Assembly: GCA_003971905.1 (NCBI GenBank)
Contig: RSEE01000027.1
Location: 62,001 to 126,000, forward strand
From: Moniliella sp. 'wahieum'
Lineage: Eukaryota > Basidiomycota > Moniliellomycetes > Moniliellales > Moniliellaceae
DNA: 64,000 nucleotides
Reading direction: 5' to 3'
Shown: positions 23,557-60,652 of the stretch, in pieces
Layout of the letters: each line of letters starts with the position of its first letter
Position numbering within the stretch: position 1 is the stretch's first letter
The notes under the pieces: model-generated
Told to the model about the DNA's origin: nothing
The model's input: only the letters and a program-made list of their open reading frames with translations
The model's database searches: none
Made by a program: the position numbers and the translations under genes

Positions 23557-24463
23557 GGGCGGCGGAGGGGGCAGCGAAGGGGGTCTGCTGGCAAGTGGAG
23601 GTGATCTGTGCGATGTTTCTGTTGCTGCCCTGCGTACTGGGTCTGATTAATGAGCGCTTGGGTGCGTGGCCACAGCCCGCGTGAGCCTGAGGCTGCACTG
23701 GGAGCGTGAGGGGCCGCAGTGCAGGGATCGGCGGATCGGCGCTGTGCGCACGCGTGCGCAGGGGCCTGCATCATCGATCTGCATCACCCGTCGCGCATCG
23801 CCATGGAGTCGCAGCACTGGGCCCGTGCTGCCCGCAGCTGAAACGGGCCCGTGCCCGCTCGGCGCCACTGTGGGTGCGGAGGCTGTCCCCCATGCGCCCG
23901 TCTGCGTCTGGTGCGGCTCCGCGGGGCGGGCACAGCGCCTGTGCTGGACGGCGGATGGGGCCGGCGGGGGCCGGATGCAGCGGCAGATTAGGCGCTTAAG
24001 CGCTTAAAGCGTAAGCACTGGAGATCGGAGATTGGGCGCACGCGCAGACAGACGCAGAGCCACAGCGCAGCCATCGGCCCATCTCCTCTGCCCAGGCCAG
24101 TCGACTGGCTCCCTTGCGCAGCCCCAGCATTGGACGGATGCCCCCCACCTCCATCTTGCGCGGGGCGTAGATATGATACGCCTGCGGATGTGGGACAACC
24201 AACCTCCTGCGTTCTTCCTTCGAACGCAATCAATGCCTGTTATCATCCTAACATCTCCACGCTGCAACAGGAAAAACAGTGCTACCAAATGATCTGTTCC
24301 AACCATACGCAAGGGAAAACGTTGAATCCATTTACAGTTGTTGTGGGCAGAGAGGGCCATCGCGATTGCCAACCAGGCCCAAACACATCTTGCTGGCTAG
24401 CAGCAACAGAGAGAGCAAGAGCGGGGTGTTAACAACCAATCAGTTAGGCTTGTTGCAGCAACT
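23557..24463. other. GC-rich spacer between the hypothetical gene and GLT1
   Basis: Promoter side of the minus-strand hypothetical gene and 3' side of GLT1. A small palindromic stretch AGGCGCTTAAGCGCTTAAAG lies at about 23990-24009. No gene supported. Confidence 0.4.
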
Positions 24464-27400
24464 CTACCTCCTTGCTCGTCCAGGGGTAGTGCGCTTGGGG
24501 ATCGAGCCGGCCCAGGGCAAGCGGCTAGAGCCACGGAGCTGCTCGTCGATCGCTTGCGCGCACGCCCGGCCTTCGTGGATGGCCCACACCAATGACTGGC
24601 CCCGACGAGCGTCGCCGCACGCCCAGACGCTCGGCACCGAGGTGCGGAATGGACTGGCACCCTTCGAGTCGGCAGCCAAAATGTTCGAGCGGGCATCCTG
24701 CTTGAGCGCCAACGACTTGATTGCCTCATTCTCCGGACCCAAGAAGCCAAGCGCCAGCAGACACAAGTCACACGGCCACCGCTTCTCCGTCCCGGGCACC
24801 TTGTTCATCTGCCACTTGCCACTCGCGTCCTTCTCCCAGGCAACCTCAACCGTGTGGACAGCGACCAGGTTGTTCTCCGCGTCCTTCTCAAACTTGGTCG
24901 TCGAGATTTGGTAGTGGCGCGGGTCTTGACCATAGTGGTCCGTCACCTCAGTGTGGCCGTAGTCGGTGCGGAAGATGCGAGGCCACTGGGGCCAAGGGTT
25001 GTCGCGCGCGCGCGACGCTGGCGGTTGGGGCAGCAATTCAAAGTTCACCACCGAAGCCGCGCCGTGGCGGACCGAAGTACCAATGCAGTCATTGCCCGTG
25101 TCCACCACCAATGACAATCACATTCTTACCCTTGGCATTGTAGAAGTTGCCGTCCTGCAGCCCCGAATCCAACAGCGACTTGGTGTTGGCACCCAAAAAG
25201 TCCATCGCGAACAGCACCCCGTTCGCGTCGCGGCCATCCACCCGCAAGTCACGCGGCCAGGTGGCGCCCGTAGCAAAGACCAGTGGTCAAACTGCTCAGC
25301 GAGCTCCGCCGCATCCACGTCGCGTCCCACCTCGACGCCACACTGGATATCCACACCTTCGGCTTGGAGCAGCTCGGCACGACGCATGACCACTTCCTTG
25401 TCCAGCTTCATGTTGGGAATGCCATACATGGCCAGACCAAACGGACGGTCGGCGCGTTCAAAGACAGTGACCGAGTGACCCGCCTTGTTCAGTTGATCGG
25501 CACATGCCATCCCAGCCGGACCGGAACCGACAATGGCCACCGTCTTGCCCGTCCGGTGCGTCGGCGGCTGCGGCTTGACCAGGCCCAGTTCAAACGCCTT
25601 GTCAATGATCGCCCGTTCCACCGTCTTGATGCCTACGGGCGATTCGATGATGCCCAACACGCAAGCGCCTTCGCAGGGGCAGGGCACACCCGGCCGGTAA
25701 ACTCGGGGAAGTGTTGGTGGACATTAGCTTCCAGTACGCCTCTTCCCAGCGACCGTTGAATACCAAGTCGTTCCACTTGGGGATCACATTGCTGATCGGG
25801 CAGCCCGTGTCAGATTGGCAGAAGGGCACACCACAGTCCATGCAACGCGCCGTTTGCACCTTCAGCTCGGCATCAGTCAGGCGTTGGACAACTCCTTAAA
25901 GTCCTTGGCGCGCACGTTGGGTTGACGGTACTTCTCCGCGCGACGACGGTACTTTTTGAACCCACGCAGCTTGTCCAACTTGGCTAGCGCCGTCTTGGCC
26001 CTCTCGGCATCCAGCAATGCATCTTCAATGTCCACTTCGGCCGGCTCGGCCTTGGCGGCGGCCGCCTTCTCTTGCTCCTGCTGTTCTTCCTCCAACAGGC
26101 TGACTTGGGAGCTGTGCCGCGACAAGGTACCCAACAAGTCGACGTGGCTCGAGCGTTTCTTCTCAGCCGCAGCCTTGGCCGCCTCCTCCTCCAACACACG
26201 CTTGTAGTCGTACGGCATGACCCGCACAAACCGCGGCAAAAGATGATGGAAGTCGCGGATCACATGCTCGGCCACCGTCGAGCCCGTGTAGTGGCGGTGG
26301 TTCTCAATCAGGTTGCGCAGCTCGGCAATCTCGTGAGGGTCCTTGACCGGGCCCAGCTCAACCATCTCGGTGTTGCACCGCGAGTAGAAGTCGCGGTTCA
26401 TGTCCAGCACATACGCAATCCCGCCACTCATTCCAGCCGCAAAGTTGCGCCCAGTGCTGCCCAGCACGACGACGCGACCGCCCGTCATGTACTCGCACCC
26501 GTGGTCCCCGACTCCTTCCACCACCGCATGCGCCCCGAGTTGCGCACCGCAAAGCGCTCGGCGGCAATCCCACGGAAGTAGGCATTACCCGTCGTTGCAC
26601 CGTACAAGCACGTGTTGCCGATCAGAATGTTCTCCTCTGCCTTGAACGCCGAGTTCTTGGGAGGGTAAATGATCAGGCGGCCGCCCGACATGCCCTTGCC
26701 CACATAGTCGTTCGCATCGCCCTCCAGCTCGAGCGTGATGCCCGGCGCCAAGAACGCACCGCACGACTGACCCGCCGATCCCTTAGCATTGATGTGGATC
26801 GTGTCCCGCGCCAAGCCCTCCTCGCCATACAGCTTGGAGACACGGTAGGACAACGTGGCCCCCAGTGCCCGGTCGGTATTGACCACCTCGCAATCCACTT
26901 GGACCGGCAAGCCCTCCATCAACGCCGGCTCAGCTTCTGAGATGAACTTGTTGTCCATCCGCACGTACAGGCGGTGGTCCTGCTGGCGCACCTTGTACGT
27001 CGCCGCACCCGGACGCAGCTCATGCGCCGGCTTAAGGATCGCGCTCAGGTCCAGCTTGGAGGCCTTGACGTTGCGGCCCGTGTAGTCAGTCTTGAGCAGT
27101 CCGACCGACCCACCATCTCATTGATCGTCCGCAGCCCCAGCTTGGCCATGATCCCCCGCAGCTCCTCGGCCAGGTAGTAGAAAAAGTTGATCACATGCTC
27201 CGGCTGGCCAGCAAACTTTTCACGCAAGTCGGGGTCTTGGGTCGCAATGCCCACTGGGCACGTGTTGAGGTGGCAGTGTGGGCCACCACGCCATCGGCCA
27301 GCTGGAAGTGACCGCCCGACACTTCCACACCACGGTATTCCCGCTCGCCGGCCAACTTGGCCAACGCAAACGGCGCCACCTCCAGCTCCGTCGCCGAGGC

Positions 27401-30400
27401 GGGCATCCGCTTCCGCTCATACAGCAAGTAAGGTTGGATCTGCGCCAAGCCCGCGCCGCTGAGCGTCACCACCGAAGCACCCTGCTCCGTAGCCACGCCA
27501 CTGGTAAAGATACCCAGCTCTTGCGCCAGCAAAGCCACATCCTCCACCAGACCCGCATGGCCTTCGGCAGTCTGGGCAAAGACGTACTGTCCACTGGACG
27601 GAGGTAGGATCCGTCCGTGTCGAGCAGACCGGCCAAGATGGCGCGCTTGGCCTCGGCCGAAGGGAAGGCGTGCAGAGGGATGCGGCGCTCCTTCTTGCCA
27701 AGCAGACCCAGCTCCGCCAGCTTGGCCTCCAACGGGTTCCACCCATCGGCAACGACAGTGTGCTTAAACATGTCGGCACGAGCAAATGTGGTGGAGCCGA
27801 CGAGGTCACCAACGGCGGTCACCTTACGGCTGACCACGGTGAGCTCCGCTGCACCCTCAGGACGCGTCGCGTTCAGCTGCTCCACGTACTTGTGCAGCCA
27901 CACGAGCATTTCGGCATCGATGCAGCCAGCGTAGCACGGTGCGCATCGCCATCGCCCAGCCAAGCGCCCACAAAGTACGCCTCGTCTTGCGCCGTCCGCG
28001 CTTGCGCCTGTGCGCTGGGCGGACGAGGCGGAGCTTGTCGTGCGAGTGGCCAATCAGGTCCCGCCGTCACCTCGAACCGGTCACCGTCCAAGACGAGGCG
28101 GCTCCACAAGGCCGTGGTGCTCCGACAGGAGCAAGCTGTTCACCAGCTGCGCCTGCTCCTCGGACGCCAGCGAGAGTGAGACCTTGTGCAGACCACCACA
28201 GTGCACTCGCTTGCCTCTTGGATCTTTTCCTTGAGGAGAGCAAGACGGCCTTGCAGCTGGGCCCCGACGCGGATAAAGGGCTGCTCGGCCGGCGCGGGCG
28301 ATGCAGGCGCCTTCGACTCTTCGGCCAACACCAGGGCATCGACAGGGCCCAGGGCTACTGTGTCGGCGGCGGGCTCGAGGGCAGGGGTGCCAGGGGCGGT
28401 CGAGGAAGACGCATCGGAACCTTGGTCGCTCTCAAGCTCGGGCATGGTCGTGCCCAGGTCAAAGTGAACGTGGAGAGTGGATGTGCGGTGGATGCAACTG
28501 CTCGGGTCAAACGGCGAGGCGCCAGTTGCATGGGCACGGTGACGGTGCCCGCTGAGCAAGTCCTTGGTGATCATCTCCGAGCTAAGCACAGCCGTCAGGT
28601 CAGTATACCGTCTCATATGGGGAAATGACAACCAACGTACCCGATCTTGTCGTCCATATCGTCTTCGCGGTCCAAGTCTTGACGTCGCCCAGCGATACTA
28701 GGTCGTGCATCATGCACGACGCGCGTGCTCCGCCGCCTGGTCCAGCTTCTTGTCCGACACACAGCGCGTGTAAAACTCGACCGTCTTGTTCTCCACCGTC
28801 GGCTCCACACCCACAGCAGCCAAAGAGAGAATGTGGTCGGGCGTGCACTCAAAGTGCTTCTCTGCACCGTCAATGGTGTAGCTCACCTGGTACATCGTTC
28901 CCGTTTCCACGTCGCCCACCGACATGACCAGGACGGGGTTGTTGCTGTCGTCCAGCAGAGCATCACCCAGGGCAATGTCGCCAATGCGCTTCGTCGCACC
29001 ACCAACGGTGCGCACCAGCGTATCGACACCCAAGCACTTGCGCATCATGATGCACCCCATAGCAATCAGAGGAGTGGTGGCAAACCCATACTCTTCGGCA
29101 CCCAGCAGCGTAGCAATGGCCAAGTCGCGACCGGTACGCAACTGACCGTCAGTCTGCACTGTACACGGCCACGCAGGTCGTTCAACACCAGCGTCTGGTG
29201 CGTCTCGGCCAGACCCAACTCCCAGGGCAGACCGGCGTACTTGATGCCAGTCCAGCGCGACGCACCTGTACCACCGTCGTGACCCGAGACCAGCACATGG
29301 TCCGCCTTGGCCTTGGCCACACCCGCTGCCACAATCCCCACACCCACTTCGGATACAAGCTTGACGCTCACCCGTGCGCGCGGGTTGGCACACTTGAGGT
29401 CGTAGATGAGCTGCTTCAAGTCCTCAATCGAGTAAATGTCGTGATGGGGAGGAGGGGAAATAAGACCGACGCCGGCAGTCGAGTGACGCGTACGCGCAAT
29501 CGACGGCGACACCTTGTGGCCCGGCAGCTCTCCACCTCACCCGGCTTGGCACCCTGCGCCATCTTGATCTGCAGCTCGTCACTGTCGGCAAGGTAGTGGA
29601 CGTGACGCCAAATCGGCCGGATGCAACCTGCTTGATCTTGGACCGCAGCGAGTCGCCATTGGGGAGCGGGATGGAGCGTTCGGCATCCTCACCACCCTCA
29701 CCCGTGTTGATTTGCCGCCGAGACGGTTCATGGCAATGGCCAAGGCCGAGTGAGCTTCCATCGAGATGGAGCCGTACGACATGGCACCAGTGCAGAACCG
29801 CTGCACAATCTCCGTCCAGGGCTCGACTTGGTCCACCGGGATGGCACGCACCTTGCTCAAGTCAAAGTCGAGCAAACCACGAAGAGTGGTGGCCTTGATG
29901 GATTGAGTGGCCTGCTTGCTGTACTGGTCCCAGGCAAACTGGTTCTTTTCCCGCGCCGCATCTTGCAAGTTGGCAATGGAAACGGGGTCATTCACGTGCG
30001 CTTCACCTCCATCGCGCCAGTGGTACTCGCCACTCTCGGCCATCACAGGGGGCAGAACCGTGTCCTGCGAGGGCCAGCCGCGGTTGTGGAACTCAAACGC
30101 GTCCATGGCCATCAGTTCAAACGTGATCCCTTGATACGGCTCGCCGTGCCGGCAAAGCAACGATCAATCACCGAATTGTCCACACCGAGTGCTTCGAAAT
30201 CTGCGCACCCTTGTACGATGCCAGCGTCGAGATGCCCATCTTGGACATCACCTTCAGAATCCCGCCATCGACACCGTGCAGCCAATTGTCAACCGCCGTT
30301 TCGAGCGTAATGTTCCTTGATCAAGCCCTCGCGGTGGACCTTGGCCATCACCTCAATCGCAAGCCAAGGGCAGATGGCGGCGGCCATAGCCAGTCAGAGC

Positions 30401-32701
30401 GCAGAAGTGGTGCACCTCCCGTGCCTCAGAAGTCTCAATCATCAGGGCCACCTTGGTACGCGCCTTGTTGCGGATCAGGTGGTGATGCACTCCCCCGATG
30501 GCCACGAGCGAGCTGAGGGCAACCCGCTCTGCGTGACCGCACGGTCGACAAAACCACAATGGTGTAGCCCTCGGAATGGCAGCGCTGGCTTCGGCACAGA
30601 TGCGGTCAATCGTCCGTTCGTACCCGCAATGCCATCGGCCTTGGGGAAGGTAATGTCAATCACCTTGGTCTTCCAGTCCTCGACAGCCTCGTGGATGCGC
30701 TGATCGCGTTCATTTGCTCAATCTTCAGCATAGGCGAGGGAAGCAAGAGGCGGTGAGCCTGCTTCGGGTTCATCTCCAGCAAGTTGCCCTCTGGGCCGAC
30801 ATAGGTCTCCAGCGACATGACCACCGACTCACGAATCGGGTCAATCGGAGGGTTGGTCACCTGCGCAAACAGTTGGCGGAAGTACTCATACACCTGCCGC
30901 GGAGCATCAGCAATGCACGCCAACGGTGCGTCGTTGCCCATCGAGCCAAGGGCTTCCTTGCCAGACGCGCCCATGGGCAGCATAAGCAAACTGATTGCTC
31001 ATTGGTGTAGCCAGCCGCCTGATGCGCGGATCGGTGCTGAGGGTCGTCGCGTCGAGCTCGGGGGCGATGGAGCGTTGGCACGGGTACGGCTGCAAATGTC
31101 GGGCAGTGCAGCAGCTGCGCTTCGAGCCACGCAGCAAAATCGGCCGACTGCGCAGTGGTCATCTTCAGCTCCTTGTCATCGACCAGTCGGCCCTCCTTGG
31201 TGTCCACCAAGAGCATCCGCCCGGCTGCAACCGGCCCTTGGCCAGCACTGTCGCCGGATCAATGTGGATCGTGCCCACCTCGGACGCGCAAATCATAATG
31301 TCATCGTCGGTGATGACGTACCGGCACGGCCGCAAACCGTTGCGGTCCAAGTTGGCGCCACAGAAGCGGCCATCCGAGAAGGCAAACAAGCAGGTCCATC
31401 CCAAGGTTCGGTCATGCAGGCCGCCCAGCGGTAAAACGCAACCTTCTCCGGCTCCATCTGGTCCTGCTTGCCTTGCCATGCTTCGGGAATGAGCAGCATG
31501 ATCGCTTGCGGTAGCGTCAACACGCCATTGACCACCAACAGTTCCAGCACATTGTCAAATCCGGCCGAGTCCGATCCTCCCGGTTCAATGATCGGGTAGA
31601 GGCGGTCGAGGTCGGTGCCAAACACTTCGGAGCGAAGCATGCCTTCACGCGCACGCATCCAGTTTTGTTGCCGCGGATCGTGTTGATTTCACTGGTGGCA
31701 AAGCGTCAGTACAGCAGAACATCAGTAGTGCAAGAGGGGAAGGTGCGCACCATTGTGGGCGCCCATCGCATTGGTTGGGCACGGTCCCAAGAGGGGAAAG
31801 TGTTGGTCGAGAAACGCGAGTGCACCAACGCAAAGTGCGACTCGTAACGGGCGTTGAGTAGGTCATAGTAGTAGTCGTACACCTGCCGGGGCGCGAGCTG
31901 GCCCTTATAGACAATGTTGCTCGGAGAGAGAGAGCAGATGTAGAACCAGTTGGCCAGCCCAATCTTGTGCGTGGCCGACTTGCGCAGCACATACAGTTGG
32001 CGATTGAAGTTCTTTTCATCAAATGCAGCCTCAGTTTGTGCGGCGCCGAACCAGGACCATAGTGCTCCTTGGCCACAACGAAGGGCTGGAGGGTCTTGGG
32101 TTCCTTGCTGAGAGCCGCTGGGCCAAGGATGGAGTTGTCGACACTAACATTGCGCCAGCACAGGACACGCAGCCCTACCGAGTCCGCGACCGACTCAAAG
32201 ATCTTTTGGTGGTCCGCGCGCAGTCGGTCGTCCTTGGGAGTAAAGAAGACGTTGCCCACCGCGTACTGGCCCTCGGGGGGAAGCGTGATGCGAAGTCCAT
32301 CTCCAGCTCGCGCCGGAAGAACGAGTCGGGGATGCCGGTCATGCAGCCAGCGCCGTCACCATCGCGCGCGTCGGCGCCTGTGGCACCGCGATGGGTCATG
32401 TTGCAGAGAACAAACTTGGCATCCGACACAATCTTGTGGCTCGGCTTGCCCTTGATGTGGCAAATGAAACCCACACCGCAGCTGTCCTTCTCGTTTTCGG
32501 GATCGTACAGGCCCTGGGCAGCCGGGAGCGAATCGCCGCCGTAGGACGCGAGCGGATGATATTGTGGAAGCCATTGTCGTCCAGGTTGGCCGAGGTGGTC
32601 ACCTCGGCGTGGTGGTCGCCCCGCGGAGGAGCGACGAGGGGGTCGTTCAGGTCGGGCTGTTGGGGCTGCACGGGCAGGGCGTCGACGCGGACGGCGACCA
32701 T
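24464..32701 (-). CDS. GLT1: glutamate synthase [NADH], fused large and small domains, with intein
   Basis: Converts glutamine and 2-oxoglutarate to two glutamates using NADH. Order from 32701: short leader; Ntn glutaminase starting at catalytic Cys (codon 32480-32478) in [57 protein letters not shown]; the central domain with [12 protein letters not shown]-type remnants near 30970; FMN site and [20 protein letters not shown] near 29230-29290; GCIMMRKC then, after the intein, [20 protein letters not shown]; the GXGXG beta-helix domain ([32 protein letters not shown]). The beta part has [88 protein letters not shown] and a C-terminal [20 protein letters not shown]. About 2,160 residues once the intein is removed, the usual fungal length. 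More than a dozen single-base frame changes; no introns seen. Confidence 0.96.
27276..29036 (-). other. full-length intein with LAGLIDADG endonuclease inside GLT1
   Basis: In-frame protein-splicing element of about 587 codons inside GLT1. The N-terminal splice residue is Cys (codon 29036-29034) right after [24 protein letters not shown] is a Hint block A, and [13 protein letters not shown] is block B with its TxxH. A variable linker follows (about 28140-28640). The homing endonuclease part has two LAGLIDADG helices, [14 protein letters not shown] near 28000 and [15 protein letters not shown] near 27600-27645. The C-terminal block [21 protein letters not shown] leads into the +1 Cys of CHLNTCPVG (codon 27275-27273). 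The penultimate His is present; the expected terminal Asn codon AAC is read as AC (27277-27276), a one-base loss at the junction. GLT1 inteins are known in some other fungi; the fit to class-1 splicing is from the visible blocks. Confidence 0.93.
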
Positions 32702-41100: not shown

Positions 41101-43614
41101 GACGGAGACGGGGGGATAGCATCGAGAGTGTAGTTAAGCGGGCGAAGGGCAGGGAAAACTTGGTTCGAAGGTACGGACCCCAGCGATACGGCACCAGGCG
41201 CTGCCTGAGAAGCAAGGGCGGTGATAGAGCCGGCAAGAGGTCGCGTTGGGCAACCCTTGTGGTGTAGCGGACTTCGCGGACAGAGCAGCTTGAAGAGATC
41301 CAGCGACCAGCGCGTGTTCGTCCTCCCATGCATTGGTCGTCAGGTTCCAGATTGCGTAGCTGCCCGTAGTTTGTCCAAAGGCACCGCCAGTGGAGGTCAA
41401 GGGGAAGCGGCCCAAAAACAATATGCAGTCGGAACCCAGGTTTTGAATCGCAGACACAGGTCCAGGAAGCCCACCAGCAAGCGTGTCCCACGTTGCGTTA
41501 CCAACGTCAAAACGAGCAGCATGCAGAAGTTGCGTCTTGCCATCGGCGGTGGCACTAAAGTTCCCGCCAACGAAGACCCCCGAGGAAGTGGTCAGCAAGG
41601 CTGATACAGCCCCGTTCATCATCCTCCCCCCGGCAACACCATGGCCTCGTACCGCGACGTGACGGCAGATTCCGTTGCATTAACAGGGGGCACCATGACG
41701 ATCAAGTTAGAAAAGGGAGTGCTGGTCGAGGTGGCGTTGGAGTGGTGGTTCCATTGAACGACCCGCCGACCAAGACTTGGTTGCCGGCAATCGCGTACGC
41801 CGCTACATAGGATGGAGCCGTCAGCGCCAACGCCCCCATCCCAGCGGAAGCAGCGTCAAGGACTCCCGTTGTGACGTTGGTCACAATGGTAGTGTTGGGC
41901 AGAGGGGCATAGATGTCCGCCTCGAGCAGACCAAACCCACGCACGCTGGCAGGAGGCAAAGCTGAACTGTTGCGCAACACCGCATCCACCCGATTGACTG
42001 CGGCTGTCACCTGGCTTCCCTGCGCGGGAGCATCAACGGTGAGTGTCACGCTCGGTTTCCAGCTCTGGGTTCCCGCCGCAACAGGGCCATCATACAACTG
42101 AACCGTCTCCGCTTCAGATCCGGGTGCAGGAATGGCAGCCGTCCCAGCGGGGAGAGAAGAATTGAACTCAATGCTGGCCGACATGGAGCCCGCCGCGCCA
42201 CAGGTTCCGGTATCGTTGCATCCGGGGATCGTAGCATACAGGGTATAGTTGCCTTCAACCTGGACGTCGAGATGGAAAGTAAGGGAACCCTGAGATGTGG
42301 CGGAGCGCGCGAGACTCAGATAGCCCTCGGACGTATTCGCTCCGCTGGAGTAGGCACGATGGCTCCAACCACCGGTAGCGGTTACGAAAGCCGCGAAGGA
42401 CTCGGCTCCAGTCTGGTTGGAGCGGCATTGGGCTCGGTTGAAACCTCGGTTGGCGTGAGCTGATGCGCCTGGACCCAGAAGTTGAACCAGGTGCAGGCCG
42501 GGCCCAGCGCCGATCCAGGAATCGACGCTGATGGTAAAGGAGGAGATGTCGACTGTGCCTGTAGGCGACGACTCGGCGTCGGCCAGAATAAAGTCCTGGT
42601 AGGGAATGGACGGAATCTGGGATATGGGGCAGGTGGTGGTACAAGTCGCATTCAACCGGTTGAAGTGTCAGCATAGATCAAGGTGACGGGATTGTCGGAC
42701 GAGGAGGTGGTCAGAGAAAAGTTGCCGGACCACGGCCATTGGCAAACGTGTTGCCCAAGCGAAGGGCACGCGCAGGTGCGGTACGCAGCAAGTCCACAGT
42801 CAGGGACCCGCGCGTGCCATCGGGCCAAAGGAATGTCCCACCGCTGGCGCCATCGTTGGCTTGGGGACAGAGCAAATCAGAAGGGTCGCCGCTGCCCACT
42901 GCGCTGGCCTGAATGCTGCACCGGCGAGGGAGACGGGACGCAGGGCCGAAGTGAGGGGACTGGCACTGCGATTGCCTCCGGCTCCAGGGGAAGAGAGCTG
43001 GACGCTGAAGCCGCCAGCGAGTTGGGTTGTAGCAGGAGATTGACCAGGGCCCAATGCGAAGACGGGGCCATCCAAGGCGGGGTACGGTTGGGCCCCCAGG
43101 TAAAAAGGTGGTATTCCAAATGGAAACGGAGCCACCAAAATCACCGGCAGCGACTATCGTCTGGTGAGTAGTGTCGCAATAGAGGCATGAACCGGCCCAG
43201 ACAGGCCCTGGCCAAGGGGGTACCATGTGCCATTATTGCCATCAAGCGGCTGCCAACGGGCAATGTTACCAGCGGGGACCCCCGCCAGGGAGGAGAAATT
43301 ACCGGCGGCGTAGAGTGCTGCGGGCTGCTGGGGCTGTTGGGGCATTTCGCAAAGCGCGTTGATGGAACCGCCAGGGTCGGTAGCGGCCAAGGGGAAGACG
43401 GTGCCATTGGGGGCGCGCGCCAGAAGGGAGGCGTGAGCTGGCTGAGACTGGGAATTAGGCGTCCATAGCTCCAGCCCAGCAAAGGCACCCACCAGAGCGG
43501 CGCTGCCGAGCTGGTCAAAGTCGAGGGAAGCGCGCTGGAGGCGGCGAGGGCGGCGGCAGGTGCAGGTAGCGCGGCGAGGGCGAGGAGGACCGACGCGGCC
43601 GCAGCACCAGCCAT
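38161..43614 (-). CDS. RAX2: Rax2-like cell-polarity membrane protein with C-terminal SH3 domain
   Basis: Probable type I plasma-membrane polarity marker. The start at 43614 gives MAGAAAASVLLALAALPAPA, a signal peptide. The long ectodomain has repeating Rax2/kelch-like blades: LDFDQLGSAALVGAFAGLEL, ALYAAGNFSSLAGVPAGNIA, TIVAAGDFGGSVSIWN, NQVLVGGSFNGT, SGVFVGGNFSATADGKTQLL, LMIGGQFASGNATNLAKYP, TTLVVAGQFDTAGSLPCNGI and VLLVSGSLQTAAYGLLGALL. One transmembrane helix follows (SVGIVICISIFIGLGIVLIL..., about 39640-39730). The cytoplasmic tail is Ser/Gly/Thr-rich with a GT repeat (about 38820-38860), then a C-terminal SH3 domain VAHARYDYAPSSPAELPLVA, GQEVRVLQ, DPDWWLAQN, GQTGVVPSGYLL-stop. Intron 40314-40381 (GTACGT, CGACTAAC branch, TGTAG end). 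About 1,790 residues. At least ten frame changes. The SH3 end is not in yeast Rax2. Confidence 0.88.
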
Positions 43615-54330: not shown

Positions 54331-57034
54331 TGTGAAAACGATCCTGAGATAGGCATGTCAGCGGAGCCTCAGCTCAGCGCCGCCGCAGGAATCTCTCTAT
54401 CTGGCAAGGCACGCTTCTGCCGAGCACAAGAGCCCGACACGCCGATTTATCACGCGTCCGATCAGAGGCATCCCGATCACATCTAGATTTGCACCCTCGA
54501 TCCAACGTCCAAGCCTTCGACGGCCTCAACGGCCTCGATCACATCTCATCAACAGAAGGCTCCGCCCCGTTTCGATTCCGACGACGACCTCCTCGCCCCA
54601 CACTCTCGTATGGTGACAGTGTTGTCGACTTGCCACACAAAAGCGGAGAGCCCTCTCAGCCCTTATCGATTATCGATTTTCACGGTCATTTAATCCACAA
54701 CAATGAACTGAACACCGGCCGAACCCAAACCCGGTGCACATTTATATACTCCAGTGTATGTTGGTGAACGTCGGGCTATATCGCCAGTACGCATTATACC
54801 AGTCGTCGTGGGGAAAGCCAAACAGCGTCTGATGCTGAGGCGGCTCGACCTTATAGCGGCCAGATTGAAGGTGGGATGGCCTGGTGGACAATGAGCGCAA
54901 AAAACTGATCGAAGGGGGTCTTCTTCTAGTAGAGAGTGCATGGAGGGAACAGAGAAAGAAACTATGCGGTACGGTTTAGTGGTCATCCATGAGTGCTCCA
55001 ACCGAAACATCCGCAAGGTGGGGGTTGAGCACGCTGAAGAATACACCCGGACTGGAAGAAAGGCGAGGAGACGAATAGGCTACCGAGAGATAGCCTAGTA
55101 TACGTCTGGAGGATCAAGTGTGGAGAGAGGTGGACCGCACCTAAAGAGACTGCGATCGGAGATGACGAGAGAGGCGCCCAAGTTTTTGAGTACGAGAAAG
55201 AGACGGTGCACCACAAGCGACCACAACGCGCATGTGAAACGCCGGGAGGAGAGCCGCGACGACTGTTGGAGCAGGGAAACACTCAAGACACGTTTTCTTC
55301 TCTCTCTCTGATCCTGTGACGATAAGCAGGGGTACTATGCCGCCATTCAAACGAAAGTCAACAAGATATTCGAGCACTGTGGGAGGAACTTACCTGTATG
55401 TCAACCATGCTCATTCGTATTCACTGACGCTACATCCGGTTTGGGGGTGAATATAGCTGAGAAGAAAGCCAGCACAGTGAGTTTTGACCTACTAGTCACA
55501 GCAGTGGCCTCCTGATTGGGATGGCCCAAGAGCAATAGCAACACGCGCACCGGATGAGCGAGCGTTGTAGGCGCAACGGTTCTTTGTCCCTACACTGTCT
55601 CAAGAGGTTTTTACAAATGCTATTAGTATAACTAGAACAGAGTGGCAAAAATGGGCATAAAAGGGGAATATATATTGACCCAAGAAGGACAGAGAAAAGG
55701 GATGGGAGGTTCACAGGAGGGAGCGATAGGATGAGGATTCGCAGGTCGATCATTAATGAGCGAAGGAAATCAGTCCAAGAGGGAGAGAAAGAGATGACAC
55801 GCAGAGGCCTCTGTGCGGGAACCGTCTCTCCTCTCTTATCGTCGGTGTCTGCACTACAACGAACCCATTTTCCCCTCATTCTCCAACGGCTGCATCCATT
55901 GTTTCCCCTTTAGTAGTCTCTGCCCGTGTAACAGAACATGGTTTTCCCCTATACATAGTAAGCGGCTCCGCCTCCTTCTACAATTGATCAATCTATCAGA
56001 CCCATCTGGTGACTTATTCTTCTTCTACTGTATCAGTTGTACCCATAATCCAGTCCTCCCAGCTCACAATATACCTGTAGGGTCTCAGTACATGCTTCAA
56101 TCCCTCACAGTTTCAGTCCCAGCTTCTTCCTTCTCAACATCAAGATCAGGGGGCAGAGGGTAGTGTGCTGTTGCCTCTTTCCCAAAAACCCCGAGTCCAG
56201 AAATGGCTTCATACATGACCTTACTCCCCAGATTGTGGTGCCTACGCAACCGTAGTAGTTACCGCCGCCTTTCTGCCGAAGTTCCACATTTTATCCCTAG
56301 CGCCCCTCTGATCTACCGCCACAGGCTCACGAACGAAATGACCATCTCGCCTGAGTCAACCCTTCCGAAATCCAATGGATTGTAGCCCTTATCAGCCCCC
56401 GCGCGGGCCCCGAGATTGGGATCTGTCCATGACAGCAGTGAGGCAAAAACTATAAAAGCATTGTTGGCAGAAACACACTACTACGTGCATGGGGAAATTG
56501 ATTGATACACACAGGCACAAGAACGTCAGGAGTCAATTTCTTGGTGATGGCTATACTATACCGACTGTGTGCATATATACTTTTGACTGTACACCCCAGG
56601 CACCTGCCTATTGCCATTTTCATATACGGTGTGAACAACAGAATTCCCACAATGCAGAATATATTGTACCATGTAACTAACTGTCGTCCGCAATGAAGTA
56701 GCCTCGACGGTGTCAGACTCACGCCGTGCTATAGGGGGCCCTTAGACCACTAGGCCCGTATGGGCACCATGGCGTGATTCCTATGATCAGTTGGATCCTG
56801 TGTCCACATCCCGACTGTGCCCCCTTCCTGAGGAGTAGGTATACCACCTCCTCTCCGTCCATAGACGTATGTAATCCATCTGCGTCCTTTCCCCCATCTC
56901 CATCTCCTGTTAGGCGGATTGAAAGAGCAAGGGATATTATCGATGAACGCGACAAAGAAGTACTATGGTGTGTTTGTTTCATGAATGTGTTGAAGACTTT
57001 TGACGGATCAGTCCTTAGGAATGACGGTGTGGGC

Positions 57035-57847: not shown

Positions 57848-60652
57848 GGCGGCCGTCGGGCCCAGTCGGCCTTCGCCTGGTTCTTTCACGGTACTTGTTC
57901 ACTTGCGCCCTGGTTCTTCGTCCTCGTCCCCGTCCCCAGCTCCGATCCCGGTTCTTGCCCTGATTGACTCTGGTGCCAACAGCGTCTTTATGGATCGTGT
58001 CTTCGCTCACCGACACGGCCTGCTTGCCCATCCGCTGGAGTCGCCCTTGTCAGTCCGCGTAGTTGACGGACGCCCCATCTCTTCGGGTCTGGTGACCCGG
58101 GCGGTGGAGGCATCCGTCGCGGTCGGCTCGCATGTGTCGACCGAGGAATTTTTCCTCACCTCCCTCCACCATCCCTTGATTCTTGGCCTCCCTTTCTCGA
58201 GGCCCACAACCCTTCCACCGACTACCCCTCGCACACTTTGCATTTCGACAAACCGCAGTGCCGTGAGCATTGCCAACCCCAACCCCAGCACCAGCACCAG
58301 CACCCCCCCACCAGCACCAGCACCCGCCCCGCACCAGCACCAGCACCAGCACCAGCACCAGCACCAGCACCCGCCCCCGCACCAGCACCAGCACCAGCAT
58401 CTCCCCAACCAGTTCCCCCCTCCCCCATCCGCCGCAGTCCCCTCCAGCTTCCGTACCAGTCTGTGCCTCCACTTTCAAACCAGTCCCCCCCCCCCAAGGT
58501 ACGCGTCTTCGCTCCTCACCCTCCGGTACCACCCTTCCCAGTCCTCCCTTCGCCCTAGCGTGCCGATTGACCTCCTTTCCTTGGAACAGTTTGAAGGAGA
58601 GGTGGCCGCCGATCCCCACACCGAGGTATGCGTTGCCCGTCCCAGTGACCCAGCTTTGGTCATTTCGTCTGTTTCCGTTGCAGAGGGTCCAGAGCCAGTG
58701 TTCCTGACGAGTTTGACACCCCGGAGTATGTCGACCACGTCCGGAAAACGGTGCCTACCCGCTACCATGCCTATCTTGATGCCTTCTCCAAGTCTGGCGC
58801 CAAGACGCTTCCCACCCATCGTGCGGCCGACCATTCGATCGACCTCGTGCCCGGCGCTACTCCCACCTTCACTCGTCTCTATCCCCTCTCTACGGGCGAG
58901 ATGGATGCCCTGGGCCGTTGGATTGACGAAAATTTGGCCTCTAGGTTCATTCGCCCGTCTAAATCGCCGTTTGGCGCGGATGTTCTCTTTGTTAAGAAGA
59001 AGGATGGCTCGCTCCGACTGTGTGTAGACTATCGTGCTCTCAACTCCATTACCATCAAGAATCGTATGGCCCTCCCCTTGATTAGTGACTCGCTCGATCG
59101 CTTGTCCGGGGCTCGCGTTTTTACCAAGCTTGACCTCCGTGGGGCGTACAACCTTTTGAGGGTCAAGGAGGGCGATGAGTACAAGACGGCTTTTCGTACC
59201 CGGTATGGTCACTTTGAGTCGCTCGTCATGCCGTTCGGTCTCTGTAACGCGCCCGCCACTTTCCAAGCCATAATGAATGATCTCCTCCGGGACCTCCTCG
59301 ACGTCTCGGTGCTGGCATATTTGGACGATATCTTGGTATTCTCGTCGGACGAGAAGGCACACGAGGAGCATGTTGCCGAGGTGTTGCGGCGTCTGCAGCG
59401 CGCAAGGCTTTACCTTAATCCGGACAAGTGCCAGTTCCACACATCCCAGACTGAGTATTTGGGCTATGTCGTTTCGCCCACGGGGATCGGAATGGATCCT
59501 GCTAAGGTGGAAGCGATCAAAGCATGGCCGACGCCAAGACCAGTCGCCAAGTTCAGGTGTTCCTTGGGTTTGCCAATTACTATCGCCACTTCATTCGCTC
59601 CTATGCCCGCATTTCGGCACCCCTTTCCGACCTCACCCGCAAGACACAGCGGTTTGATTGGACGCCTGCCTGCCAAAGCGCCTTCGACGACCTCAAGAGG
59701 GCCTTCGCTTCTCCCCATGTCATTTGCCATTTTGACCCAGTCGGCCACTCCGCATTGAGACTGACGCATCGGATGCCGCCTTGGGTGCCGTGCTGGCCCA
59801 GCAGGACGAACATGGTCGTTGGCGGCCTGTCGCCTTCCATTCCCGCAAGCTTGTCGCAGCCGAACTCAACTATACCACGTCTGAGAAGGAGTGCTTGCCA
59901 TTGTGGCGGCCGTCGAAGTGTGGCGCCACTATGTTGAGAGCGTCGATACGGTCCAGGTGCTTACGGACCACGAGGCGATCGCTACCTTCCGCCGGCCGCG
60001 CCTCCTGAACCGCCGGCAGGGCCGGTGGCGTCAGACCTTGTCGCCCTACCGGTTACTCATGGTGTATCGCTCCGGGACGAAGAATGCTGCCGCTGATGGC
60101 TTGTCCCGTCGCCCCGATCTTTCCATCGGCTCTCGCCCTGCCGAGGCTGCCCCCCAGACCCTGCTGGAGCCTGTCTCTGAGCGTTCGGCTGCTGTGCTCG
60201 AGCTCATGTCCACTCAGCCCGACGCGCCGTTGGTGGGCGCTTGTCGGCCGACGGATCCAGCAGCGCATCCGCGACTTGGTGCCCCGCGACCCCTTGGGCC
60301 GTTGCGATCTCCCCGCGACCCCCCCTCATGCTCTTACCGTTCGCGATGGCCTCCTGTGGCATGGGGAGCAGATCTATGTCCCCCCGATGCCCCTCTCCGC
60401 GCGGCTGTCCTTTTCAGGCCCACGACTCCGCGCTGGCAGACACGAAGGGCGGGACAAGACTCGGTTGCGTGTGCGGTCGCAGTATTGGTGGCCCGCCTGT
60501 CGGCCGACGTGTGGGCATATGTGCGCTCTTGCGACCGTTGTCAGCGGACCAAAGTGCCGCGGCGTCCTCCCCTGGCTTGCTTCAACCCTTGGCCCCACCT
60601 CAAGGCCCGTGGACTCATTTAACGATGGATCACATCACCCAGCTTCCACCAA
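57790..60652 (+). pseudogene. pol fragment: protease, reverse transcriptase, RNase H, start of integrase
   Basis: The protease has the active-site LALIDSGANSVFMD near 57955-57997. A Pro/His/Gln/Ala linker encoded by a CAGCAC repeat follows. Reverse transcriptase runs from about 58790 ([13 protein letters not shown]) through [60 protein letters not shown] and the catalytic YLDD at 59318-59329. RNase H is ETDASDAALGAVLAQQDEHG to VLTDHEAI (about 59755-59985). The integrase zinc-binding part has CDRCQ near 60528-60545 and the core starts at TMDHITQLPP (first catalytic Asp codon 60627-60629), cut by the right repeat at 60653. Frame shifts near 58705, 59545, 59755, 59900 and 60240. Not functional: integrase core and both LTRs absent. 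Confidence 0.9.
58275..58412 (+). repeat. CAGCAC hexanucleotide repeat inside pol
   Basis: Roughly twenty CAGCAC/CAGCAC-like units interrupted by CCC runs, between the protease and reverse transcriptase segments. In the pol frame it encodes alternating Pro-Ala or His-Gln; on the other strand it reads GTGCTG. It has no stop in several frames, which creates long antisense open frames. Confidence 0.9.

Follow-up and report, generated by a model that had tools for sequence, protein, structure and literature searches.

The 64,000-nucleotide stretch of the Moniliella sp. 'wahieum' genome analysed here (contig RSEE01000027.1, hereafter the window) carries on its minus strand a GLT1 gene, encoding a glutamate synthase with fused large and small subunit regions, and that gene is interrupted by an intein. 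We are confident that the insert is a class 1 intein with a LAGLIDADG homing endonuclease, inherited vertically since the two GLT1 loci of this genome split. The first-pass annotation had placed it at positions 27276 to 29036, inside the [3Fe-4S] motif of the synthase; these coordinates hold, on the minus strand, and the insert is present in all four GLT1 copies of the genome assembly. We start the gene at the first ATG of its alignable part (32701) and end it at a TAA (24446-24444); in the window copy the frame is broken at many places, and there is at least one intron. The features are as follows, in window coordinates and in the order of the gene.

24444..32701, minus strand: GLT1, glutamate synthase with large and small subunit regions fused (six-frame translation, alignment of four copies, phmmer comparison to GltS)
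29037..29057, minus strand: end of the N-extein, GCIMMRK, with the codon of the first presumed cluster Cys (2vdc C1102) at 29054-29052
27276..29036, minus strand: intein of about 570 residues without its intron, in four of four copies, with the Cys1 codon at 29036-29034
28833..28844, minus strand: block B, TPDH (TxxH), within FECTPDHIL in all four copies
28582..28640, minus strand: spliceosomal-type intron inside the intein, GTACGT...CTGAC...TTAG, 59 nt in the window copy
27942..27980, minus strand: LAGLIDADG motif 1 (block C), its Asp (27953-27951) aligned with PI-SceI D218
27604..27636, minus strand: LAGLIDADG motif 2 (block E), its Asp (27615-27613) aligned with PI-SceI D326
27276..27280, minus strand: C-terminal His and remnant of the Asn codon, with a single-base gap private to the window copy
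27258..27275, minus strand: start of the C-extein, CHLNTC, with the +1 Cys (2vdc C1108) at 27275-27273 and the third presumed cluster Cys (C1113) at 27260-27258

A search of the assembly (69.5 Mb in 223 contigs) gave four matches to the intein, on the window's own contig (C27) and on contigs C5, C18 and C9, and four matches to the C-extein on the same contigs. None of these four GLT1 copies is an empty one with an uninterrupted MMRKCHLNTC. The copies form two pairs, C27 with C5 and C18 with C9, whose members are 98-99% identical in intein and exteins alike. Between pairs, identity falls to 81% in the intein and 88-90% in the exteins, and no near-identical tract of the kind left by gene conversion was seen.

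The elements of the intein follow one another as expected: block A (C-L-G-V-D-T), block B (TPDH), two LAGLIDADG motifs and a terminal HN/C, where the slash marks the splice junction. As in class 1 inteins, Cys1 directly follows the N-extein at a junction that is open in all four genomic copies, and the TxxH of block B is likewise present in each; LGDGD and LDTDG, which supply the two catalytic aspartates of the endonuclease, are also found in all four. At the other end, the codon of the +1 Cys (TGC) adjoins the last intein base, 27276, and HN/CHLNTC, with its C-terminal His-Asn followed by Cys, is open in three of the four copies. The window copy is the exception: its gap at this junction leaves the last part of the intein out of frame with the C-extein in raw translation. 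The intein spans 1754-1772 nt across the copies, which after subtraction of a 58-60-nt intron leaves about 570 residues. Its endonuclease part is matched by PI-SceI, the Saccharomyces cerevisiae VMA1 intein (E 8.7e-6, over residues 147-314 of a C-terminal query), with both catalytic aspartates in register, although PI-SceI sits in another host gene and at another site, the similarity is low, and its splicing part is unmatched by sequence. From these motifs we infer both protein splicing and endonuclease activity.

The position of the insert was examined with the flanks of the C9 copy, joined after removal of the intein (469 residues). All five distinct sequences returned from a comparison with solved structures are glutamate synthases: 7mfm (E 1.6e-175, aligned end to end), 6s6s, 2vdc and 1ea0 (about 5e-161) and 1llw (1.6e-151). 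In the three printed alignments the joined flanks pair with GCVMMRACHLDTC of 7mfm and with GCIMVRQCHSNTC of 6s6s and 2vdc. The C-x5-C-x4-C spacing that had been read from the window alone is thus borne out, its cysteines falling on residues 1102, 1108 and 1113 of the bacterial structure 2vdc. The insert directly precedes position 1108, so that the second cysteine of the motif is also the +1 splicing nucleophile, and an unspliced precursor cannot have the motif in contiguous form, as the first-pass annotation had argued. Its assignment of the motif to the [3Fe-4S] cluster stands as far as the alignment of the three cysteines with bacterial GltS goes; we take C1102, C1108 and C1113 of 2vdc to be the cluster ligands. 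A literature search for a paper naming the three found none. The retrieved passages of one review (PMC8097209) assign the [3Fe-4S] cluster to the alpha subunit and residues 781-1202 to the synthase domain, with ligand numbers absent from those passages.

Several observations weigh against a class 1 intein with a homing endonuclease. The best family models score below their cut-offs (Hom_end_hint, PF05203, 20.1 bits against 32.1; LAGLIDADG_3, 19.2 against 22.5; Hom_end, 14.2 against 21.1), the NCBIfam models gave no match to the intein, the Intein_splicing model (PF14890) missed the GLT1 intein in this very genome, and the N-terminal part of the intein found no PDB match better than E 0.063. 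In addition, no single open frame spans the full intein in any of the four copies, and C27 and C5 have in common a single-base gap within it (alignment column 6126) that could be a real break. The failure against curated models weighs little, given the broken frames and the divergence of eukaryotic inteins; with scores below cut-off, membership rests on the motifs, the position, the rejoining of the host sequence and the PI-SceI match.

The frame breaks need a closer account, since the window copy cannot be read through in a single frame, a point beyond the first-pass annotation: besides the 59-nt intron, its intein has seven private gaps of one or two bases, including the one at the Asn codon of the C-junction. 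Private gaps or insertions inside the intein, nearly all of one or two bases, number 7 in C27, 2 in C5, 4 in C18 and 8 in C9. The 1500 extein columns upstream have 7, 1, 6 and 1 private gaps in the same order of copies, and the exteins downstream 2, 0, 1 and 1. Most of the breaks are seen in one copy only, and the exteins have them as well as the intein, a pattern that looks like sequencing error. The gaps common to C27 and C5 might be read differently. Besides the one in the intein there are several further single-base gaps of this sort in the exteins, some in strongly conserved stretches. Together with the presence of frame breaks in every copy, these common gaps are what could suggest that GLT1 has decayed, either at the window's locus only or at both, and that its intein is a remnant that does not splice. 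We consider this very improbable, and reject decay as the main explanation of the breaks: most of them are private to one copy in four and spread over exteins and intein, the common ones also hit strongly conserved extein stretches, and the exteins have dN/dS of 0.025-0.031 between the loci, with 152 of 171 and 239 of 279 differences at third positions. Given those dN/dS values, a basecalling error shared by C27 and C5 is the likelier source of their common gaps. In an assembly this rich in errors one might also ask whether the insert is a chimera of assembly, but it lies at the same site on four contigs, in two diverged versions whose differences are distributed as in codons, and, short of one error common to all four, this explanation can be dismissed. 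Chance is excluded too, since the insert occurs in all four copies, at two diverged loci, and has diverged codon by codon.

Selection and age were estimated between the loci by comparing C5 with C18, over 497 of the roughly 570 intein codons, with codons touching gaps dropped. Synonymous divergence (dS) is 0.738 in the intein and 0.651 and 0.568 in the two extein regions. The dN/dS of the intein is 0.154 (95% interval 0.115-0.202; 497 codons), against the 0.025 and 0.031 of the exteins. By part, it is 0.114 for the endonuclease (0.070-0.175; 201 codons), 0.094 for the N-terminal splicing part (0.021-0.227), 0.189 for the linker (0.108-0.285) and 0.169 for the short C-terminal splicing part (0.023-0.597). 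A looser assignment of frames gives 0.142 for the intein and 0.076 and 0.043 for the exteins, the 0.076 region including poorly anchored columns. Intein and gene have diverged together under purifying selection. These values imply that the intein was present when the loci split, that conversion has not overwritten it since, and that no part of it has drifted freely. Selection on the endonuclease, as estimated from these substitutions, suggests either that homing has continued in this lineage or that the part has a structural role; a homing element would be expected to retain it, and its retention does not point to a regulator in particular.

The intein itself is interrupted by an intron of spliceosomal type, found in all four copies at the same position between block B and the endonuclease part (GTAYGT...CTGAC...TTAG). 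Its length, 59 nt in the window and in C5, 60 in C18 and 58 in C9, is not a multiple of three; translating through it runs into stops, and taking it out restores DDKIGSEMITK in C5. C5 and C18 agree at 34 of 58 intron positions, versus 156 of 178 and 139 of 174 in the neighbouring 180 columns on either side, a low identity that would be the drift expected of an intron. A literature search for introns inside inteins found no paper, a wider search by terms having been followed in passages only; those of a paper on RNA polymerase inteins mention 20 introns in one intein-bearing gene and leave unstated whether any lies inside the intein.

The two GLT1 loci are colinear. Positions 4.7-53.5 kb of the window correspond to about 538-580 kb of C18, in inverted and partly incomplete gene order, and the best C18 matches of the window's open frames from about 5 to 53 kb lie mostly in one inverted order; about 37-52.7 kb has no counterpart in the C18 segment compared. 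Within that part of the window, positions 41705-42667 encode a Rax2-like polarity protein (Rax2_3, E 1.5e-15), unmatched in the C18 segment as if lost there or gained in the window. Farther along, 58649-59755 encodes a retroelement reverse transcriptase (RVT_1, E 4.1e-39), and a frame that starts at 56735 is probably gag-like; the retroelement has no match in the C18 segment either. RPB2 and a dynein heavy chain gene (PF12774, on contigs C50 and C2) also occur at two places each in the genome, so the simplest interpretation is that the assembly is diploid and that its two GLT1 loci are duplicates kept from an older duplication of the genome or of a segment. A hybrid origin of the two loci is possible.

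A second intein lies in RPB2, on contigs C8 and C23, between RQLHNTHWGMV and CPAETPEGQ; it is present at both places found (97% identical) and ends in SHN/C at the C8 place. When the protein of the GLT1 intein was searched against its own genome, it returned nine pieces belonging to the four GLT1 copies and one further match at E 0.028, at positions 6534-6803 of contig C218, a weak similarity (34% identity) to the linker part. No relative of the intein was confirmed in viral contigs. To see whether prokaryotes or viruses have the same site occupied, we also scanned for DNA coding for HN/CHxNTCP, a pattern that covers this C-junction only and was run without a positive control: it gave one stretch in the genome contigs scanned and none in the viral contigs. 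The single stretch is not GltB: it matched by chance, in a frame that has stops and runs antisense to an open frame of 392 residues. Elsewhere in the genome, the trehalose-phosphate synthase family (PF00982) gave 33 matches on 11 contigs and is possibly expanded, and no rhodopsin-cyclase fusion of the Blastocladiomycota type was found at the three of six rhodopsin loci inspected.

The GLT1 insert adds one more member to a known kind of intein. As far as the retrieved passages of the literature describe them, known GLT1 inteins sit in the same host protein, are full-length with a LAGLIDADG endonuclease and are of similar size (PMC5056185, PMC5784728, PMC1635734): those of Candida have 553-607 residues (PMC5056185, Table 1), a 2018 survey lists five GLT inteins from Pezizomycotina and Saccharomycotina (PMC5784728, Table 1), and named hosts are given in PMC1635734. 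They lie in a highly conserved loop of GltS. The passages describe GLTi-a as mapped on 1EA0 in a conserved flexible loop, and the text gives no residue number (PMC5784728); the present site is in keeping with that loop. By description, the nearest non-allelic relative of GLT1 inteins is that of the Podospora anserina chitin synthase CHS2 (PMC5784728, PMC5056185). Unlike the known GLT1 inteins as described in those passages, the one analysed here holds a spliceosomal-type intron. A literature search on inteins, glutamate synthase and basidiomycetes retrieved no passage reporting a GLT intein from a basidiomycete. The host's IMPDH is nearest to 4af0 (Cryptococcus), at 436 bits against 402 for the following entries, a weak hint of Basidiomycota; such a placement, if it holds, would widen the known host range. 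The fungus apparently has no flagella: dynein PF12774 matched at two places only, which speaks against a zoosporic fungus. The flagellar families PF06098 and PF12317 had no match in this genome or in any control and are uninformative, and the trehalose-enzyme loci yielded no placement.

On the motifs described above, we propose that the transcript would first lose the ordinary spliceosomal intron nested in the intein, and that the precursor would then be translated. Cys1, the His of TxxH, the terminal His-Asn and the +1 Cys would drive an N-S acyl shift, transesterification, Asn cyclisation and an S-N shift, releasing an intein of about 570 residues and joining GCIMMRK to CHLNTC, and only on the spliced protein could the [3Fe-4S] cluster form. 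By origin the insert would be a mobile element, inherited vertically with its gene since the GLT1 loci separated.

In a trivial sense, any intein placed in a catalytic motif is a gate on its host. A stronger proposal is that the intein is a post-translational switch, in which redox or iron state sets splicing and through it nitrogen assimilation. We think this unlikely, and hold the same doubt about its supposed basis, that four thiols (the cluster Cys at -6, Cys1 of the intein, the +1 Cys and the Cys at +6) form a disulfide or bind iron. In its favour, the cluster Cys is itself the splicing nucleophile, and the splicing parts are conserved between the loci, as the N-terminal part shows. Conditionally splicing inteins, namely redox-trapped ones and that of SufB, likewise have splicing residues beside host cysteines. 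Redox responses are reported for some bacterial and archaeal inteins in passages of PMC5784728, and passages of PMC5056185 (section 8) already propose a modulating role for the GLT1 intein, as a fine adjustment of nitrogen pathways. Against the switch, a regulator alone could do without an endonuclease, yet the endonuclease is conserved and none of the four copies is a mini-intein. Passages of PMC1508164 also report that in another species, C. guilliermondii, the GLT1 intein is not fixed across strains, which fits a homing element. Redox or nitrogen regulation by this intein, which the first-pass annotation had raised as a possibility, is a hypothesis neither supported nor excluded. That it is a kept gate on nitrogen assimilation, with thiol redox and iron supply deciding when the enzyme matures, seems to us slightly less probable again than the switch.

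In this fungus both duplicates of GLT1 have retained the intein, and its endonuclease is under purifying selection. A gate, if true, would explain why a full, selected intein was kept at both loci, and the nested intron would add RNA-level control over the same insert. Because the intron lies inside the intein, RNA splicing and protein splicing would both have to take place before the enzyme exists. The site itself offers a clean natural case of one cysteine that would serve both as splicing nucleophile and as iron-sulfur ligand, and with this double role one can test directly whether an intein in a catalytic motif acts as a regulator or as a parasite.

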